Source of the DNA: Paenibacillus brasilensis
Lineage (GTDB): Bacteria > Bacillota > Bacilli > Paenibacillales > Paenibacillaceae
Assembly (NCBI RefSeq): GCF_009363115.1
Contig: NZ_CP045298.1
Location: 2,076,001-2,140,000, forward strand
Direction of reading: 5' to 3'
Length of the DNA stretch: 64,000 nt
The position numbers were made by a program, and so were the translations under genes. Every line of letters begins with the position of its first letter. Within the stretch, counting starts at the first letter, position 1. The notes beneath the pieces are model-generated. The model did not search any database. It had not been told where the DNA came from and worked only from the letters and a program-made list of their open reading frames with translations. Below are positions 6,632 through 59,046 of the stretch, in pieces.

Positions 6632-7468
6632 CTTGAGCTGCAAAAGCTGAGAGAGGAACTGAACGTTGAAGTCACACAAAATATAGAGGATATTTTGCTG
6701 GATTCAGACGTGGATATCGTCGATCTGTGCCTGCCCTCCCACCTGCATAAGTCATATGCCATTGCTGCGCTCAAGCGCGGAAAGCATGTGTTTTGTGAAA
6801 CGCCGGTTTGCTTTGACCTCGAAGACGCTCTGCTTATGCAACAAGCTGAAAAGCAATATGGTAAAAAGATTCTGGTCAACCAGTTCATTAAGTTTGATCC
6901 TGCCTATACCTATCTGTACGAGGCTCATCGTCAGCAAAAGTACGGGAAGCTTATTTCCTTGTCCTTGAAAAGGGAAACGCCTCCCTTGTGGGGCGATCTT
7001 GGACTAAGCTCCATCCCTACTCAGTTCATGATTCATGAACTGGATTTATTGGCATGGCTGCTGGGCCCCTGTGACCCATGCACGGTCTGGGGTACAGAGG
7101 TTGCCCATCCTGAACAGGCGCAGGTCCGGGCTTATTTTCAGCCGCAGGATACGTTCACAGAAGTCATTGCCTCTTCCCATATGCCGGCAAGCTATCCATT
7201 CACGGTAGCCTATGAAGCTTACTTTGAAAAGGCCAAGCTGGTATTCCATGAAAGCAACGAAAATGATCCTATATCTACTGCATTATATGAGTATACCGCA
7301 TCAGGGCAGCAAAAAATCAACCTCGAATCCGCCAATCCGTACGAAAAAAGTCTGGATCATGGCCTTGAATGCTTTGATGGGCATGCGGAATGCCTGATTC
7401 CACTGGAACAAGCCATTCAATCGTTGGAAATGGCTATTAAGATTAAGCATAGATTAGAGCAATCTTAG
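6632..7468 (+). pseudogene. 5'-truncated Gfo/Idh/MocA-family oxidoreductase
   Basis: The frame runs from about 6632 (LELQKLREELNVEVTQNIED) through ILLDSDVDIVDLCLPSHLHK and KRGKHVFCETPVCFDLEDAL, typical of the second half of the Rossmann domain. The C-terminal substrate domain follows (FMIHELDLLAWLLGP). The first 50-60 residues, which hold the GxGxxG dinucleotide motif, are missing, and no start with a binding site is present; a first Met codon at 6695 would start inside a core strand. The product would lack the NAD(P) binding loop, so it is almost certainly inactive. Confidence 0.75.
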
Positions 7469-7510
7469 CGTTAACCCGATGTCTCCAGCAGTTACGGTCG
7501 TCAACCTCCC

Positions 7511-8527
7511 TTACAGGGAGGTTGTGTCCGTAGGCAAGGAAACTTCGTCCACATAGTTGGTTGCCATAATCTTGGCTACCCCTGCGGGGTCGGTGGTCTG
7601 GCCTAACGCCCACATCATTTTTGTTACAAGCGCCTCCGTAGTCATGTCATACCCCGGAATAACACCCTTCTCCAGTACCTTCTGCCCGACCTCGTAAATC
7701 GTCAGATCCCCGCCCTCATAGGGACATTGAGTAGTCACGACAATACTCATGCCGTCCTTCATCAATTCCTCGATTTTGCTGATCAGGCTTCTTTCCTTGA
7801 AAGGTACGCCGCCCATGCCAAAGCCCTCAATGACGATACCTTTATAGCCTAAGCTCTGAATAGCATCAAAAATCGCCGGATTCGTACCCGGAATCAGCCT
7901 GAGCAAAAATACCTCCGCAGCATACCCGTCATTATACGGGTAGCGAATGGTACTACGATTAGCAAATACGCCGTCCGAATAGACCACCTTGCCGTTCTCC
8001 ACGAGTCCAATGTATGGATAGTTAATACTCTCAAAAGCATTATAGCTGCGTGTTCTGATTTTGGAGCTGCGGCTGCCGTTAATAATTTTGCCGTTAAATA
8101 CGACAAAAACCCCTGCCACCTCGCCACATGCGGTCAGGAATGAGTCGATTACATTTTTTTTGGAATCGCTGTGCTCGGCCAAAATGGACACCTGTGAACC
8201 TGTCACAACGACGGGCTTGTCTACGCTTCCCAGCATGAAGCTCAAGGCAGAAGCTGTATAAGCCATTGTATCCGTGCCATGTGCAATGACGATACCATCG
8301 TATTGATCGAGGGAACGGTGTACCATCCGGGCAATTGAAGCCCAATCCTCCGGTTGTGTATTGGTGCTATCAATGCTCATCAGATTGTGGGCATCAATAT
8401 CGCAAATTTCCTTGAGCTCCGGAATTTCCGCCAGAATATTCTCAGCCGATTGGGTCGGAGTCAGGCCGTTTTCCTGGTAGGAGGAAGAAATCGTTCCACC
8501 TGTGTTGATGAACAAAACCTTTTTCAT
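7511..8527 (-). CDS. ansA: L-asparaginase (type I-like)
   Basis: The 338-aa enzyme hydrolyses L-asparagine to aspartate and ammonia in the cytoplasm; no signal peptide is present. The two asparaginase signatures are visible: TGGTIS at residues 9-14 with the nucleophilic Thr, and HGTDTM at 83-88 with the second catalytic Thr-Asp pair. The length is normal. A small inverted repeat (AACCTCCC / GGGAGGTT, 7503-7523) spans the stop codon. The gene stands alone, followed on the same strand only by nothing within 100 bp and preceded by the amino-acid ABC operon. Confidence 0.9.
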   Translation of the reverse strand: MKKVLFINTGGTISSSYQENGLTPTQSAENILAEIPELKEICDIDAHNLMSIDSTNTQPEDWASIARMVHRSLDQYDGIVIAHGTDTMAYTASALSFMLGSVDKPVVVTGSQVSILAEHSDSKKNVIDSFLTACGEVAGVFVVFNGKIINGSRSSKIRTRSYNAFESINYPYIGLVENGKVVYSDGVFANRSTIRYPYNDGYAAEVFLLRLIPGTNPAIFDAIQSLGYKGIVIEGFGMGGVPFKERSLISKIEELMKDGMSIVVTTQCPYEGGDLTIYEVGQKVLEKGVIPGYDMTTEALVTKMMWALGQTTDPAGVAKIMATNYVDEVSLPTDTTSL

Positions 8528-8636
8528 GTGCCAATGTTCCTTCCCGATTACATCTTCACTTTATTGTTTTTAGAATTTATCATGAATAAGTGTGATAAGC
8601 TACTTTGCTATGGAAAAGAATTGTTGAAGGATGGTG

Positions 8637-48547: not shown

Positions 48548-49294
48548 TCACCAATGAGCTTTATTCCAACGCTGAATCCGACGTTTGTTTCTCAAAATAG
48601 TGTGAATCATCTTATGATTGGGGAGCTGCTTGAACAACTTATGTCCGGGATGCGGATTGGCCTCGATAATCCAGATTTGACCACTCTTCTCAATAGCAAG
48701 ATCAATCCCCAGCTCGCGAAACGGATGATTTTTATCTATCGTGTCGGCAACCATTTTAGAAAGTTCAACGATCTGGTCCAGAATCTCTTTCATTTTCGTT
48801 CTGTCATGTTTAAAGACCTTTAAAAGCACCTTGGACAACGGTGCCGCATGTCCCCCTTTGCGGTAATTGGTAACCACTTTTCGGGGTGCGGCAACACGGC
48901 CAGTTATTCCTGAAATGATCCATTCCGACTCCGGCTTCTGCATATATACCCTGGCATCAAAAATCGAACCTTTGTACTTAGCTAACCGAAGCCCTTGCTG
49001 TACCAAATAACGGCGGTGGGGCATCCGAAAGGTTCTGATCGCTTTTCTCACTTTGTGGGCTCTGACTATTCTTCGACTGGAGCCGCAGCGAATCTCATAC
49101 CTCCTCCCCAGCTTTTTGGCCCGTATGATACCAGTCCCTCCGCTTCCAAAATTAGGCTTAATGAAAACCGTCCGATGTTCGTCCAGCATACGCAATGTCC
49201 TTGCATTGCTTATCCAACGGGTTTCCGGCAAATGAGAACTTAAAACGGGATGTTGTCGCATTTCCTTATATTGAATCATCTTTCCAATGGGCAC
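48548..49294 (-). CDS. YheC/YheD-family ATP-grasp protein (copy 1)
   Basis: The ATP-grasp core is visible as VFIKPNFGSGGTGIIRAKKL (glycine loop), YLVQQGLRLAKYKGSIFDAR and the metal-site end ELGIDLAIEKSGQIWIIEAN. YheC/YheD proteins are associated with endospore coat in Bacillus. The start is GTG 49294 (PIGKMIQYKEM), after GAGGGATACTC, matching the start of the paralogue at 58.8 kb. It and that paralogue are closely similar (shared HPVL-HLPET), so they arose by duplication. It is convergent with the HxlR-linked SDR. Confidence 0.82.
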   Translation of the reverse strand: MPIGKMIQYKEMRQHPVLSSHLPETRWISNARTLRMLDEHRTVFIKPNFGSGGTGIIRAKKLGRRYEIRCGSSRRIVRAHKVRKAIRTFRMPHRRYLVQQGLRLAKYKGSIFDARVYMQKPESEWIISGITGRVAAPRKVVTNYRKGGHAAPLSKVLLKVFKHDRTKMKEILDQIVELSKMVADTIDKNHPFRELGIDLAIEKSGQIWIIEANPHPGHKLFKQLPNHKMIHTILRNKRRIQRWNKAHW

Positions 49295-49558
49295 GAGTAT
49301 CCCTCTATTCTGTGGGTTTTTGCACGCATTACATGAATATGCATCCATAATCTACCTTGGTAACGGCGAATGCCACAGTTTGCTATAAAAGAGGCAAACT
49401 CCTCCTATCCTACCTTTTTTGATTCAATAGAGATGCGTAATGTGTGCATTACACGGCGCATTATTGGATGTGCCTATAAATGTGATTCCAATTATATATT
49501 AGACCAATACCAGCTTCGGATATATGATGTTAAAAATACCGTGAGGAGGAGCACTAAC

Positions 49559-53631: not shown

Positions 53632-53988
53632 TTACTTGAAAAACACTTTTTCGACGTTATACTTGGCCTTTTGTGAATTGATGATGTAGGTTTCATAAAT
53701 TTCTCGTTCTACCGCATCTTCCACAATACAAACCTCGATAAGCGCCACTTCATTCCGATACGCTTTCATCGGCGATACCGTATCTTCAAAATGCTTTTTA
53801 ATTCTTTGTCTCAGCTTTCTTGCTTTACCAACGAACAGCAATTCCTCCTGTGCGTTATAGAACATAAAGATACCAGCCTTGTCTCTAGGGATCAGGTGAA
53901 AATCTGTAAATCCGTAAATATGGCTGAGCTCAGGGTTAACCTGCTTGGTAATCGTAATGTCCGGGGTGGGAATCGTTATATTGATCAT
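53632..53988 (-). CDS. GIY-YIG-family nuclease-like protein
   Basis: A 118-aa protein with a degenerate GIY-YIG core: AGIFMFYNAQEELLFVGKAR (GIF in place of GIY, LFVGKA in place of YIGKA), followed by LRQRIKKHFED with the catalytic Arg, and the Glu region EREIYETYII. Stand-alone single-domain GIY-YIG proteins are common and of unknown function. Start at ATG 53988; terminator follows. Confidence 0.8.
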   Translation of the reverse strand: MINITIPTPDITITKQVNPELSHIYGFTDFHLIPRDKAGIFMFYNAQEELLFVGKARKLRQRIKKHFEDTVSPMKAYRNEVALIEVCIVEDAVEREIYETYIINSQKAKYNVEKVFFK

Positions 53989-54145: not shown

Positions 54146-54886
54146 TCAACCGTTTTTGTAATCCGTAATGCGATGATACATCGTTTTATCCTTCAGCTTA
54201 CGGAAATGGGATCTTGCCGGAAAAAGATTAGCTTCAATAATCCCGACACGTCCTTTTCGGTCTATTCCAATGTCCAGTCCATATATACGGTGCCCCGGGA
54301 AAAAAGTGCTTAATCTCTTCGCGGAACGGATGGAAACACGATCAATATGGGACTCTAATGCACTGGCAGACAGGTGTCGAATGGAGGATTGTCGAATGCC
54401 GGATTTAAAATGGTATAATGTTCCCTTACTCCGTGTATTGTTGGAAACAAAATAGCCTTTGCCTGCAACTTTGATAACCTTGCCTGTGACTACCCATACA
54501 GATGAGTTAATTCTCCGTTGAATGATGACTCTCATATCAAAAGGGCGTTTGTTGATGGTCGGACGGGTAATTCTGCGTTGAATCATATAACTGGCGTTCC
54601 CGATTTTTCTTCTAATATAATGATACGTATTGGTTCTGCCCCGTACTAAAGTTCTTTTATTCTCGTAGTGTACGATGTACTCATGGTTTCCTACCCAGGA
54701 GACCTGAAAGATCCCCCGGCCACGACTCCCCCACACCGGTTTCACGATAACATGCCCATACTTGGAGAGAAGCTTCGAAAAATTATACCTGTCCAGTAGC
54801 TTCGTTTCGGGGACGTAAGACCTCAGAGACGCATGCCTTCTCAATAACAAATATTTATACCACTTATCCTTTGCTGCTGATGCCAT
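54146..54886 (-). CDS. YheC/YheD-family ATP-grasp protein (copy 3)
   Basis: The ATP-grasp core is GHVIVKPVWGSRGRGIFQVS (glycine loop), ASYMIQRRITRPTINKRPFD, and the metal-binding end YGLDIGIDRKGRVGIIEANL. It is a distinct branch from copies 1 and 2: the N-terminus is MASAAKDKWYKYLLLRRHAS and no VPIGKM is present. Last gene of the AEP operon, 16 bp after the aminotransferase stop (ATG at 54886). The function is probably ATP-dependent ligation; in this setting either a spore-surface role or joining of AEP to another molecule. Confidence 0.82.
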   Translation of the reverse strand: MASAAKDKWYKYLLLRRHASLRSYVPETKLLDRYNFSKLLSKYGHVIVKPVWGSRGRGIFQVSWVGNHEYIVHYENKRTLVRGRTNTYHYIRRKIGNASYMIQRRITRPTINKRPFDMRVIIQRRINSSVWVVTGKVIKVAGKGYFVSNNTRSKGTLYHFKSGIRQSSIRHLSASALESHIDRVSIRSAKRLSTFFPGHRIYGLDIGIDRKGRVGIIEANLFPARSHFRKLKDKTMYHRITDYKNG

Positions 54887-54902
54887 AGGGACTCCACCTT
54901 TC

Positions 54903-56015
54903 TCATCCGCATTTTATGCTACTGAGATAGCGTTCAAGCAATTCCAAAAATAACTCCATTTCCTTATACGTGATATCACCTATATTGGCAATTCGGAACG
55001 TATTTAGTTTCTCAAGTTTGCCGGGATAGATCATAATGCCCTTGCTGTAAAAATAATCATGCATAGATTGAAAATCATAACCTGCACAATGAGGCTCAAG
55101 AATGGAAGTAATGATTTTGGAGTGATGCTCCTCGGGAATGATATAGGTTAGACCTAAGCGGGTTAACCCGTTAATTAAGGTTTTCCAGGATGTCGCGTAC
55201 CTTTCGTACCTTTTATCCACCCCTTCTTGCTTTAATTCCTCAATCGCTTGCCTAAGCGCATATAAGGTTTGGACTGGAGGTGTAAACCGCATCTGTCCAT
55301 GTTCCACAAAATAGTTGTATTGAGCATACAAATCCAAATAATAGCTTCTTGGTTTCTGGCCTTTCAAATGCTCCAATTTGCTTTTTTCGGCGATCACAAA
55401 CGAAACCCCGGCCATTCCCTGTAAGTTTTTGTTGGAGCTTGCCGCCAGGTAGGCAATATTCATTTCCTTTAATTGAATTGGAATGGCCGCAAATGAGCTC
55501 ATGGCATCCACGATCATGTCGATTTGATACCTTTTGCATAATTCTCCGATATCCTTCACCTTGTTAAGCAGGCCAGTTGTCGTCTCGTGATGAACGACGG
55601 CCAGATGGGAGACGGTGCGTTCAGAAGATTGGATATACCTCTCTAATTCAGCCAAATCAATAGCATCATCGGGAGGACTCTTGAATTCAAAATATTCCAC
55701 TCCATAAACCTTCGCTATCTCGCACATCCGTTTTCCATAGGCTCCATTGCTGACAATGATCACCGCATCGTGATTCGGCACCGAACTGATGATGGACTCC
55801 ACCGCTGCAGTACCCGACCCGCCAAACAATACGGTCGCATAATGATCCGGGTCTGCGACCAGCCGGGTAAGCTCTGTAGAAATATACTCCATGATTTGGC
55901 CAAACTCGGCTTCACGAGGACAAATATCCGGAACCACCTGTGACCATTTCACACTTTCTGTAGTCGTTGCCGGACCAGGGGTAAGCAAAATGTTTTTCTT
56001 GACGGGAGAACTCAT
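54903..56015 (-). CDS. phnW: 2-aminoethylphosphonate aminotransferase (PhnW/AepZ-type)
   Basis: A class-V PLP enzyme that interconverts phosphonoacetaldehyde and AEP. The PLP lysine is K196 in AASSNKNLQG, the phosphate-loop glycines are GGSGTAAVE near residue 66, and the N-terminal LTPGPATTTESVKWSQ is typical of PhnW. In catabolism PhnW pairs with PhnX (phosphonatase), but here the partners are PepM and Ppd, so it works in the biosynthetic direction. Start overlaps the decarboxylase stop by 4 bp (ATGA). Confidence 0.9.
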   Translation of the reverse strand: MSSPVKKNILLTPGPATTTESVKWSQVVPDICPREAEFGQIMEYISTELTRLVADPDHYATVLFGGSGTAAVESIISSVPNHDAVIIVSNGAYGKRMCEIAKVYGVEYFEFKSPPDDAIDLAELERYIQSSERTVSHLAVVHHETTTGLLNKVKDIGELCKRYQIDMIVDAMSSFAAIPIQLKEMNIAYLAASSNKNLQGMAGVSFVIAEKSKLEHLKGQKPRSYYLDLYAQYNYFVEHGQMRFTPPVQTLYALRQAIEELKQEGVDKRYERYATSWKTLINGLTRLGLTYIIPEEHHSKIITSILEPHCAGYDFQSMHDYFYSKGIMIYPGKLEKLNTFRIANIGDITYKEMELFLELLERYLSSIKCG

Positions 56016-57172
56016 GAACCGCTCACTTCCTTGCCCTTCAAAGGACTGTTATGAATAAACCGCTGCAGACGTTCTTTTACTTCATAAGGCTTCATATGCG
56101 GACGAGCAAGCTGATCCTTGGAATACTTGGATATTTTCAGGTACAAAAACGTAAGTCCTTTATCCACTTTCCATTCTTGTAAACAGGCCCTCAGTTCCTC
56201 GAGACTGTGAACATGAATCGACTTTGTATACCCGCAGGAAGCGGCAATGTCTATGAAATCGACATTATGGGATACCGTACTCTGCCCGCCTGTTGATTCA
56301 TGAGCGTTATTATCGAGCAGAATATGAACCATATTGGCTGGATGATAATAGCCGTTGGTTGCCAGGCTCCCCATACGCATCAACAGAGATCCGTCTCCGT
56401 CAATCACGACGATATCTTTGCTTGGTTGGCTCAGAGCCAAACCAAACCCCAAGGAACCGATGCATCCCATAGAACCTACCATGTACAGGTTGTTAGCCGC
56501 ATCTTCAATTTCATACAGCTCACGCCCGGTTTTACCAGTTGTTGCGAGCTGTATGGTATCGTCGTCTTTCATGGAGTTAATCGCTGATAATGCATCATAC
56601 CGTGTAGGCATTTGATGGTCCGCATGACCATGCTGTCGGATCTGATTTAAATGAATGGAGGTTTGCAGTTTTTGCAATGGCTCTTTGTCGAACGTCCCTT
56701 TCTTAACAACAAAAAAGAACGAGCGACGCCGGGCAATTTGCTCATTAGCCTGGATCAGCTGATTTTTGGCCTCTTCTAAATCCTTGGAGAGATATTGCCA
56801 TTCCACATTCATCACATCCAGCATTTGCGTTGTAATCCGGCCCATCAGTTCATGCTGAGGTTCGTCAGGTATCCCCGGTTCTCCGCGCAGGCTGACAAAT
56901 CCAAGCAGCGGAATATGAAAAGGGTAATTAAGAGAGGTCAATGGCGAAATAGCGTTGGTCAGCCCTGAATTTTGCATAAGGACTACCGACTTCTTCCCAC
57001 CTATATAAGCTCCAGATGCAATGGCGACCGCATCCCCTTCGTTAGCCGCTGCAACATAATCACATTCGTTTATCGCATAATTGATCAAGCTTTTCAAGAA
57101 AGAGCATGGAACACCGCTGAAAAAGGTGAAACCTAATTTTTTCAGCTCTTCTCCTAACAATTTCGTGTCCAT
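56012..57172 (-). CDS. ppd: Phosphonopyruvate decarboxylase (AepY-type)
   Basis: A ThDP enzyme that decarboxylates phosphonopyruvate to phosphonoacetaldehyde, making the PEP phosphomutase step irreversible. The N-terminal pyrimidine domain has NEGDAVAIASGAYIGG (residues 44-59) and RGEPGIPDEPQHELMG (96-111). The C-terminal pyrophosphate domain has the GDGS motif (259-262) and NNAHESTGGQ (288-297). The ATG overlaps the stop of pepM (TAATG), so translation is coupled. 386 aa, normal length. Confidence 0.92.
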   Translation of the reverse strand: MDTKLLGEELKKLGFTFFSGVPCSFLKSLINYAINECDYVAAANEGDAVAIASGAYIGGKKSVVLMQNSGLTNAISPLTSLNYPFHIPLLGFVSLRGEPGIPDEPQHELMGRITTQMLDVMNVEWQYLSKDLEEAKNQLIQANEQIARRRSFFFVVKKGTFDKEPLQKLQTSIHLNQIRQHGHADHQMPTRYDALSAINSMKDDDTIQLATTGKTGRELYEIEDAANNLYMVGSMGCIGSLGFGLALSQPSKDIVVIDGDGSLLMRMGSLATNGYYHPANMVHILLDNNAHESTGGQSTVSHNVDFIDIAASCGYTKSIHVHSLEELRACLQEWKVDKGLTFLYLKISKYSKDQLARPHMKPYEVKERLQRFIHNSPLKGKEVSGS

Positions 57173-58071
57173 TATACGTGCTCACCCGAATCCGGTTCTG
57201 ACGATGGGAGGTATTTTCGTTCCGCAGCTTGCAGCTCCTCGACCCCTTGAAGCCGGAATACTTCTTCGAGGGTTGCAACTCTCTTTTCGATATGGACAAG
57301 GCTTTCATCCCGATAAATTCGGTCAGATAATTGTTTCATGGCTCGGATGGATGCTCTCAAATTATGGTTTGCCCAAATCACAAGGCTGATTCCCATCTCC
57401 TGAAACCTGACGGTTGGGGTTGTATAGTATTTGGTAGGCACGATCACTACCGGCAATCTTCCGGCCCATTCCTTCATGAACGCTTCAATCTCTGTGACAT
57501 CCGATCTTTTGCTGTGTATAAATACGGCATCGGCTCCTGCCTTCCGGTAGGCCTCCGCCCTTTGCAGCGCCTCTTTAAGCCCTTTCCCGGCAATAAATGC
57601 CTCTACTCTGGCCACCACCGTAAAATCCGCGTCCGTTTGTGTATCCTTCATCGCTTTAATTTTCCCGGAAAACTCCTCGATATCAGCCAAAGCCTGCTCT
57701 CGACCGCTAATGAAAGAATTCGTTTTGGGAAACCGCTTATCCTCGATGCATACCCCAGCAATATGACGCTGCTCCAGTTTCCTCACCAGCCGCCTTGCAT
57801 TATTGAAGTTGCCGTACCCCGTATCTCCGTCCAGCAAAATCGGGATGGAGGTAGCATCACTCATGAATTCCAAAACATCCAAAACCTGCGTCCATGAGGC
57901 CTCATTGCTGTCCCTTACTCCCATCGCTGCAGAGATGGATAACCCGCTGGCCCAAATTCCTTTAAACCCCGCCTCCTCCACAATTCTAGCTGACAAACCA
58001 TTATGGGCTTCCATGATAAACTCCAGTGTTTGAGAATGGACCAAATCTCTAAGTTGCTTTGTTTTTTTCAT
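57172..58071 (-). CDS. pepM: Phosphoenolpyruvate phosphomutase
   Basis: The enzyme rearranges PEP into phosphonopyruvate, the entry step of nearly all phosphonate synthesis. The diagnostic motif [10 protein letters not shown] (residues 110-119; EDKxxxKxNS) separates it from isocitrate lyase and other superfamily members, and the Mg-binding DGDTGYGN is at 81-88. The frame is open to 58221, but the ATG at 58071 ([10 protein letters not shown]) after GGAGAAGGAGAAG is the true start, giving 299 aa. It lies 41 bp after the upstream ATP-grasp gene and overlaps the decarboxylase gene. Confidence 0.95.
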
Positions 58072-58112
58072 TGAAGCTTCTCCTTCTCCCCTAAAAATAA
58101 CGTGCAAGGAAT

Positions 58113-58841
58113 CTACTTCCAAATAATACTCTTGTTTCTCATGATCGTGTTGATCATAGTAGGATCGGGAAGCTGAGTAAACAGCATATGTCCGGGGTGT
58201 GAGTTGGCCTCTATAATCCAAATACGGCCTTTTTTATCTATGGCAATATCGACCCCCAATTCGCGAACCGGATGCCGTTTATTAATCGTTTTGGCAATGA
58301 TGACGGATAACTTGGAGATTCTACGATAATAGGCATCTGCTTTCGTACGGTTGTGCTTAAAAAGGCTGAAAAGAGCTTGATGCAAAGATACTGCATGCCC
58401 GCCTTTAAGATAATTGGTAACATACTTATGAGGTGCCGCGACACGGGCGGCCGCGCCAGAAATTACCCATTTTCTCCCTGGTTTCTGTAAGTATATCCTG
58501 GTGTCAAAAATCGACCCGTGATACTTAGCTAACCGAAGTCCTTTCTGTACTAAATACATGTGTCTGGATTTCTGGTATGACTTAATTGCTTTTAAAACAA
58601 AACGAGATCCAACAATCCTTCGGCTTGAGCCCCTACGAACCTCATATCCTTTTTTCAATCTTTTGACCCGGATGATCCCGCTACCACCACTTCCGTGATT
58701 GGGTTTTATGAAGACCGATGAATAGGTATTCAGCATCCGCGAGGTCCTCGAATCCGTAAACCAGTGGGTTTCAGGTAAATGCGGACGCAAAACGGGATGT
58801 TGCAGCATTTCTTTATACTTTTTCATTTTTCCAATGGGCAC
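58113..58841 (-). CDS. YheC/YheD-family ATP-grasp protein (copy 2), first gene of the AEP operon
   Basis: A 242-aa paralogue of the protein at 48.5 kb: it starts at GTG ([11 protein letters not shown]) with GAGGGATGA upstream, and shares HPVL-HLPET, the glycine loop [40 protein letters not shown] and the end [20 protein letters not shown]. As the first gene it sets the transcription of pepM, ppd, phnW and the third ATP-grasp gene. In Bacillus such proteins are found at the spore coat; enzymatic ligase activity is inferred from the fold. Confidence 0.82.
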
Positions 58842-59046
58842 TAGTCATCCCTCTTATCTTTTTTGATTTTTGCGCATACCGTATGCATATGCACCTAGTC
58901 CTCCTCCTGCGTGGGCCGCTACCTCTGTTAGAAACGAAGATATATGTCACAAACAGCATGTCCCACCTGTTATAAATATGAATCCCCCAAGGAGATAGCC
59001 TTTCGGACAGGCTCGGGGTCTGGGGTCCGGACTTTAGAAAATAGAC

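Follow-up and report, generated by a model that had tools for sequence, protein, structure and literature searches.

The 64,000-nucleotide stretch of the Paenibacillus brasilensis genome analysed here (contig NZ_CP045298.1, positions 2,076,001 to 2,140,000; hereafter the window) contains an operon in which three genes for synthesis of 2-aminoethylphosphonate (AEP) are enclosed by two genes for ATP-grasp ligases of the YheC/YheD (YheC/D) family. Judged by sequence comparison, this module is real, conserved and under selection, and it suggests an undescribed way of attaching a phosphonate, perhaps to the spore surface. The explanation proposed is that AEP is made and handed to dedicated YheC/D ligases, which would couple it by an amide bond, and that the product is most likely placed on the developing spore; a probability of about 0.45 is given to this reading. 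No description of the PepM-YheC/D pairing was found in the literature searched, which most subscription papers lie outside, in agreement with a first-pass annotation of this DNA that had called the combination undescribed.

The operon and its genes

Five packed genes are found on the minus strand at 54146-58841, with intergenic distances along the operon of 41, -1, -4 and 16 bp. The three AEP genes were judged by curated NCBIfam cut-offs and the ligases by the Pfam family PF14398 (ATPgrasp_YheCD). Ratios of nonsynonymous to synonymous substitution rates (dN/dS) against two relatives are 0.05-0.30 and indicate purifying selection on all five genes.

58113..58841, minus strand: YheC/D-family ATP-grasp ligase A, 242 amino acids, GTG start; PF14398 187.7 bits versus a cut-off of 26.8; dN/dS 0.11-0.12
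57172..58071, minus strand: pepM, phosphoenolpyruvate (PEP) mutase, 299 amino acids; TIGR02320 389.4 bits versus 319.55; dN/dS 0.13-0.17
56012..57172, minus strand: ppd, phosphonopyruvate decarboxylase, 386 amino acids; TIGR03297 415.6 bits versus 312.5
54903..56015, minus strand: phnW/aepZ, 2-aminoethylphosphonate aminotransferase, 370 amino acids; TIGR03301 PhnW-AepZ 399.3 bits versus 360.8
54146..54886, minus strand: YheC/D-family ATP-grasp ligase B, 246 amino acids; PF14398 163 bits versus a cut-off of 26.8

This is the packed minus-strand set that had been read from the sequence at first pass, and all five genes lie at the places given then, with family scores above cut-off. PhnW is also above the NF010006 cut-off (350.1 versus 296 bits) and is below that of TIGR02326 (346.6 versus 400.8 bits). 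The PEP mutase motif EDKxxxxxNS is present in the PepM of the window. The most likely start of pepM is the ATG at 58071, which a ribosome binding site precedes, rather than that of the longer open reading frame that begins with TTG at 58221.

Synthesis of AEP is secure by homology. PepM would convert PEP to phosphonopyruvate, Ppd would yield phosphonoacetaldehyde, and PhnW would convert this to AEP. The missing PhnX had been taken at first pass as a sign of synthesis and not catabolism, and this is borne out: there is no PhnX gene near the operon, the best PhnX-like protein of the genome is encoded far off and scores 181 bits, below the cut-off of 220, and PhnJ was not found in the genome. A domain scan of the five operon genes and two flanking genes shows no nucleotidyltransferase domain. 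Inside the operon there is no transporter gene or further tailoring gene, and no glycosyltransferase or wall gene. A precursor peptide gene within the operon was rejected, as the gaps are too short; at other loci, open reading frames of at least 60 amino acids were considered.

Conservation of the association

The family set comprises 394 genomes from the family to which the window belongs. PepM is above cut-off in 49 of these, with 52 matches, and PhnX in 8 of the 49. The 52 matches and one more below cut-off give 53 loci, which were annotated by BLAST and a hidden Markov model made from the YheC/D proteins of the window's genome. By rule, a YheC/D gene was counted as adjacent if it is on the same strand and within 500 bp of the PepM, Ppd or PhnW gene. 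Such a gene is present at 34 of the 53 loci (two such genes at 29 loci, one at 5); one further locus has a YheC/D gene near, and 18 are without. Where the plain PepM-Ppd-PhnW set is found (35 loci), YheC/D is adjacent in 32, near in one and missing in two. A second type of PepM, ∼532 amino acids in length, has adjacent YheC/D in none of eight loci (L069-L071, L073, L075-L077, L083), of which L069 was scanned and has a nucleotidyltransferase-like extra part, the other seven being assigned by PepM length. YheC/D is also not adjacent at the eight loci that do not have the full three-gene set (L059-L066). Two genomes (G090, G216) each have both a YheC/D-type cluster and a 532-amino-acid PepM cluster.

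A further search with PepM, among named organisms, provided 80 loci. Of these, 53 are from Bacilli: 34 have an adjacent YheC/D gene, 11 have one within 6.5 kb and eight have none, two of the eight (L134, L151) showing broken YheC/D pieces after phnW. None of the 27 non-Bacilli loci has YheC/D, a control that is confounded, as 23 of the 27 have a longer PepM, and that includes a few contigs shorter than 4 kb and two loci without a class label. Genera with the adjacency include Paenibacillus, Cohnella, Gorillibacterium, Chengkuizengella, Thermoactinomyces, Shimazuella, Kroppenstedtia, Neobacillus, Sporosarcina and Evansella. Named loci and those found in the numbered genomes (G handles) overlap in organisms, and P values are uncorrected for relatedness unless stated.

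A class sample of 398 Bacilli was searched with a PhnW-YheC/D protein from Gorillibacterium. Strong PhnW matches are present in 26 genomes (E 3e-131 or better, against 1e-77 for the following match). The order pepM-ppd-phnW-ligase B is found in 17 of the 20 newly examined loci, one with a 281-bp gap (L226). When the window, the Gorillibacterium locus (L138) and the locus of genome G383 (L069, with the 532-amino-acid PepM and no YheC/D) are included, 19 of 23 loci, from nine families, have ligase B after phnW. Three genomes (G469, G731, G475) were left out of the 23; their PhnW frames exceed 600 amino acids and are like the nucleotidyltransferase-PhnW type. Because of this recurrence, the conserved core is, on gene order, pepM-ppd-phnW-ligase B, to which Paenibacillus and some relatives add ligase A. 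As a conserved unit, the five-gene set with two ligases described at first pass is thus narrowed to this core, and the neighbourhood survey suggested then shows that the pepM-YheC/D pairing is not a property of one strain.

In Gorillibacterium timonense (L138, 12046-13914) PhnW and ligase B are found in one 622-amino-acid frame that has no stop codon, with Pfam matches to both parts; the 100% match in the class sample is this same genome. Other long matches in the sample have internal stop codons and therefore represent neighbours, not fusions.

The ligases also appear to be inherited with pepM. Ligase B, at 52% identity or more, is present in at least 23 of the 394 family genomes, all with PepM above cut-off (base 49 of 394). 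Ligase A, at 65% identity or more, is present in at least 17 genomes, all PepM-positive. These counts are lower bounds, with seven candidates scored per genome. Linkage is not always tight: ligase A is some 20-27 kb from PepM in two genomes (G050, G052). In another (G287), A and B are found together away from pepM (L181), and the pepM locus (L072) has another YheC/D gene after phnW. Their presence together away from pepM suggests that the two ligases act as a pair. The genomic record also contains some irregular copies. A hybrid open reading frame that matches pepM and ppd is found ahead of phnW and ligase B at L179 (6621-7763), either from a deletion or from an assembly fault, and one strain of P. 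tyrfis has ligase A broken into two frames (L101, 9250-9980).

Ligase fold and predicted chemistry

AlphaFold models of ligase B (pLDDT 94.6) and ligase A (91.5) are both predicted to have the ATP-grasp fold, and each protein consists of little more than this domain. Invariant K, D, E and N columns are found in the alignments A1 and A2; these residues presumably have the ATP- and metal-binding roles of ATP-grasp enzymes. The solved folds nearest to ligase B by VIA are ArgX (Z 17.5), RimK (16.8), and TTLL6 and LysX/ArgX (16.7). Tubulin-tyrosine ligase (TTL) is first by Foldseek, with Z 15-16 by VIA. The Z scores of Ddl and DcsG are only slightly lower, and the fold alone leaves the substrate unfixed. 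The nearest folds of ligase A resemble those of B. At the sequence level, a profile of B finds TTLL6 and TTL with E values of 4e-4 to ∼6e-3.

TTL, TTLL6, RimK and ArgX/LysX join an amino compound to a protein carboxylate. In the AEP module the amine would be AEP, which would serve as the nucleophile since it has an amine and no carboxylate. Identity between B and the ArgX/LysX, RimK and TTL/TTLL proteins is ∼14-21%, and the B model aligns from about residue 66-117 of these chains, their N-terminal part being missing in B. A shared fold does not show a reaction. Coupling of AEP by the ligases is likely, and the most likely sequence of events is that AEP is made and then joined via its amine to a carboxylate.

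The following steps are proposed, where we infer the activity on AEP, the amide chemistry and the acceptor. Ligase B would first convert a carboxylate to an acyl phosphate; this carboxylate could belong to a side chain or to the C-terminal end of a peptide, a coat protein or a polyamide. Coupling to the AEP amine would follow, with the phosphonate group staying free. A second building block is probably added or prepared by ligase A. The product would most likely be deposited on the developing spore by the mother cell, and such deposition would explain why the operon has no exporter.

Ligases A and B are far above the cut-off of the Pfam family to which B. subtilis YheC and YheD belong, but differ from these proteins in being near-minimal ATP-grasp domains tied to phosphonate genes. 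Membership in PF14398 is not confined to spore formers. In a control search, matches are also found in E. coli, Synechococcus and two archaea, and four of the five matching controls are above cut-off. Accordingly, the label of spore-type ATP-grasp genes given at first pass overstates the case.

Possible association with sporulation

All 19 class-sample genomes with ligase B after phnW have spoIVA, compared with a base rate of 229 of 338 in Bacilli. Among the 26 PhnW genomes, G383 alone is without spoIVA, and it has the 532-amino-acid PepM cluster and no YheC/D gene there. In B. subtilis, yheC and yheD are sigma-E genes raised by SpoIIID (PMC517825, available portion), and YheD forms a shell around the spore, its function being given as undetermined (PMC7911427, available portion).

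Upstream of ligase A in the window, three candidate promoter elements are present:

58877..58891, minus strand: possible sigma-K-like -10 region, CATATGCAT overlapping CATACGGTA, with an exact CATANNNTA; ∼45 bp before the GTG start
58908..58911, minus strand: possible -35 box of sigma-K type, CGCA, 16 bp upstream of the -10; one mismatch to MACM; placed from related upstream regions
58953..58981, minus strand: another candidate, sigma-E-like, TCATATT-N14-CATGCTGT; it tops the sigma-E scores at 14.5 and is shared in part, among close relatives alone

Upstream regions were scored by fixed consensus models, taken from general knowledge, for five sigma factors, and 58 regions were compared with 305 controls from the same loci. 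They derive from a set of 60 loci in which one organism appears twice (L045, L139), so that this set, the 58 regions and the aminomutase loci described below each contain one copy too many. Spacings in a legend of PMC517825 (available portion) are close to those of the models. Sigma-K scores are raised (area under the curve, AUC, 0.643), and this is the only one of the five sigmas to be significantly raised; sigma-A, B and G are not (sigma-G AUC 0.552, p 0.1, first set). The same is seen in 14 hold-out loci, where sigma-K has an AUC of 0.705 (p 0.008) and no other sigma is raised. Here CATANNNTA is found in eight of 14 regions versus six of 72 controls (p 1e-4), or in five of 11 after two genera are collapsed (p 0.005), and seven of the eight sites are 40-67 bp before the start of the open reading frame. 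The exact CATATGATA is present in five of 58 regions and none of 305 controls, a post hoc comparison, and in none of the 14 hold-out regions. Sigma-E was rejected as a rule for the module (AUC 0.454 for the 58 loci and 0.453 for the 14); for the operon of the window alone it is possible. On these comparisons the spore link is suggestive and a spore-surface location plausible.

Proposed function and alternative explanations

The proposed coupling would be a second use of AEP, with an amide at the amine instead of a CMP-activated phosphonate (CMP, cytidine monophosphate). A PntC-type nucleotidyltransferase reportedly activates AEP with CMP, as described by Rice et al. in 2019. This CMP-AEP pathway has the same PepM-Ppd-PhnW enzymes and its type is also present in family relatives, those with the 532-amino-acid PepM, but its nucleotidyltransferase is absent from the operon of the window, where ATP-grasp ligases are found instead. 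YheC/D adjacency and the 532-amino-acid PepM exclude each other in the family set, as expected if a ligase replaces CMP activation. The main text of Rice et al. (PMC6697681) has no mention of ATP-grasp, YheC, Paenibacillus, spore or Firmicutes, and PMC8939145 has none of YheC or of terms beginning with phosphon-.

A more specific form of the proposal can be held tentatively. Here endospore formers would build a phosphonate-bearing spore layer, in which mother-cell YheC/D ligases of TTL/RimK type attach AEP to the carboxylates of coat proteins or of a polyamide in the coat; in other lineages the same would be done with beta-amino acids or other amines, produced by the neighbouring genes. The module would name a likely substrate class for the sporulation proteins YheC and YheD. 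If the product is on spores, as we infer, this would add phosphorus-carbon bonds to spore-surface chemistry; to our knowledge, no substrate has been given before for the YheC/D family, and no such bonds for a spore coat.

Several observations weigh against the proposal that dedicated ligases place AEP on the spore. Two plain family loci (L082, L090) and three class-sample loci (L219, L220, L223) have no adjacent ligase. One genome (G347; L180, 6533-9572) has ppd-phnW-ligase B with no PepM match found in its draft assembly, which is either an exception to the pattern or an assembly gap. Outside the family set, seven loci of one kind (the L111 kind, below) have YheC/D and a nucleotidyltransferase-type PhnW in one cluster, and one of them (L132) is a metagenome-assembled genome that NCBI assigns to Paenibacillaceae. 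Because these loci have both, the two AEP routes are apart in the family set but not exclusive in every lineage. The promoter evidence is mixed as well. A check for sporulation promoters upstream of 58841, suggested at first pass, did turn up an enriched sigma-K-like -10 box, but the -35 of the window is imperfect, the -35 and -10 together are not found in excess (2 of 58 versus 17 of 305), and CATANNNTA, with 15 of 58 versus 44 of 305 controls in the first set, becomes borderline after relatives are collapsed (p 0.06). In the available portion of PMC7829367, quantitative PCR (qPCR) of P. terrae-like strains grown in TSB shows pepM transcription in exponential, transition and stationary phase, as for every cluster tested, the phosphonate cluster included. 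The published primers fit the YheC/D-flanked orthologue of P. terrae (L096) with one and zero mismatches and yield the 175-bp product as stated, and therefore expression of the operon is not strictly late. AEP-operon proteins have also been seen by proteomics in P. thiaminolyticus (PMC9765702, available portion). Late expression may thus be only part of the picture. The spore reading of the first-pass annotation gains support from the spoIVA link and the -10 boxes, and the qPCR counts against strictly late expression.

A possible but more doubtful explanation is that AEP and amino acids are joined by the ligases into a small phosphonopeptide, a diffusible compound exported by unlinked transporters. 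ATP-grasp ligases build peptides in phosphonopeptide pathways, as in the argolaphos and pantaphos clusters. Some module loci add an aminomutase, and ABC-type ATPase genes are found within ∼9 kb in 14 of the 60 loci, with two such genes 2-3 kb before pepM and on the same strand in Thermoactinomyces (L127). ATP-grasp proteins are so described in the part of PMC12723261 that was available, with PepM and an ATP-grasp ligase in common with the window, and PMC7829367 reports an antiSMASH phosphonate cluster in the P. terrae-like strains with pepM transcribed in all phases tested. The operon of the window differs from the phosphonopeptide clusters in that it has no transporter, self-resistance or further tailoring gene, although export and resistance genes can be unlinked, and in that it occurs in spoIVA-bearing Bacilli. 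The ABC ATPases are varied, with neither a common strand nor a fixed place. The spoIVA link and sigma-K-like boxes would not be expected for a diffusible compound, and the B. subtilis members of the ligase family are mother-cell genes. It is unlikely that AEP is joined by a ligase-made amide to a vegetative wall polymer, exopolysaccharide or protein with no special role in sporulation. AEP on polymers is a known theme, and the transcription of pepM in exponential phase would fit, but spoIVA is present in every class-sample genome with ligase B after phnW, the non-Bacilli loci, confounded as they are, have no YheC/D, and glycosyltransferase and wall genes are missing from the operon.

Use of AEP as a phosphorus store, or of the genes in AEP breakdown, is very improbable. 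In the available portion of PMC4209062, a role in degradation or storage is suggested for the pepM, ppd and phnW genes that two P. polymyxa strains carry, and phnX is listed for all four strains. Set against this are the small number of PepM-positive family genomes with PhnX above cut-off, the low PhnX score and missing PhnJ of the genome itself, and the conserved ligases, which would stay unexplained. The ligases are unmentioned in the available texts of PMC4209062, PMC9765702, which describes a three-gene AEP operon in P. thiaminolyticus, and PMC7829367, where these treat AEP genes or the phosphonate cluster. That the ligase genes adjoin the AEP genes by chance is scarcely credible: the genome (5.6 Mb) does have 12 YheC/D matches, one of them, at C1 1180560, with an internal stop, but the association recurs across nine families with fixed order, and includes a fusion and co-inheritance with pepM.

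Neighbourhood variants and paralogues

Names of neighbouring genes were assigned by eye from representatives unless a scan is mentioned. A KamA-family aminomutase gene is near the module in 12 of the 60 loci, and members have been seen at L137 (11088-12260, the only one scanned), L045/L139, L046, L057, L058, L110 and L114, and further at L119, L121, L122, L126, L211, L214 and L215. This neighbour is a sign pointing to a beta-amino acid as a further building block. An ion-transporter-like protein is encoded in seven of the 60 loci, and five of these share one position in P. tyrfis and relatives. In Thermoactinomyces mirandus, the two ABC-type ATPase genes (L127, 7196-8756) represent a possible exporter in that lineage.

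The seven loci of the L111 kind (L111, 5889-14464; L112, L113, L118, L132, L133, L140) are from Bacillus and relatives. They have a long YheC/D gene and a MurF-like ligase gene beside the AEP genes, and a PhnW of 608-620 amino acids. In L111, the only locus where the large YheC/D protein was scanned, it is fused to a COOH-NH2 ligase, and the nucleotidyltransferase match is in PhnW and not in PepM. A formylglutamate-amidohydrolase-like gene is also present, scanned in L113 alone, and a spermidine-synthase-like gene is found in six of the seven. The gene content fits a wider system of YheC/D ligases that would join unusual amines, with AEP one of them.

A recurrent gene family is found near the module at L057, L099, L100 and L137. 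The L137 member (6713-8602) is a collagen-like repeat protein, which we take to resemble exosporium proteins.

Two genes of the window are close to the operon on its downstream side:

53632-53988, minus strand: GIY-YIG domain protein, 157 bp after ligase B
48548..49348, minus strand: third YheC/D paralogue, C, 61% identical to ligase A; ∼5 kb downstream of the operon

The GIY-YIG gene was rejected as a part of the module; it was matched next to the operon only in L050, L051, L084, L091 and L095-L097, all close relatives. Paralogue C is probably also separate from the module, because its relatives occur in genomes without pepM. In a FastTree analysis of 137 YheC/D domains, proteins from the A and B positions are clustered (8 and 9 changes versus 22.4 and 37.4 when shuffled); many branches are weak and single origins are not claimed. 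Elsewhere in the genome of the window (L185, 5790-12561; C1 4071888-4077951), five YheC/D genes form a tandem array that also includes a small unknown gene.

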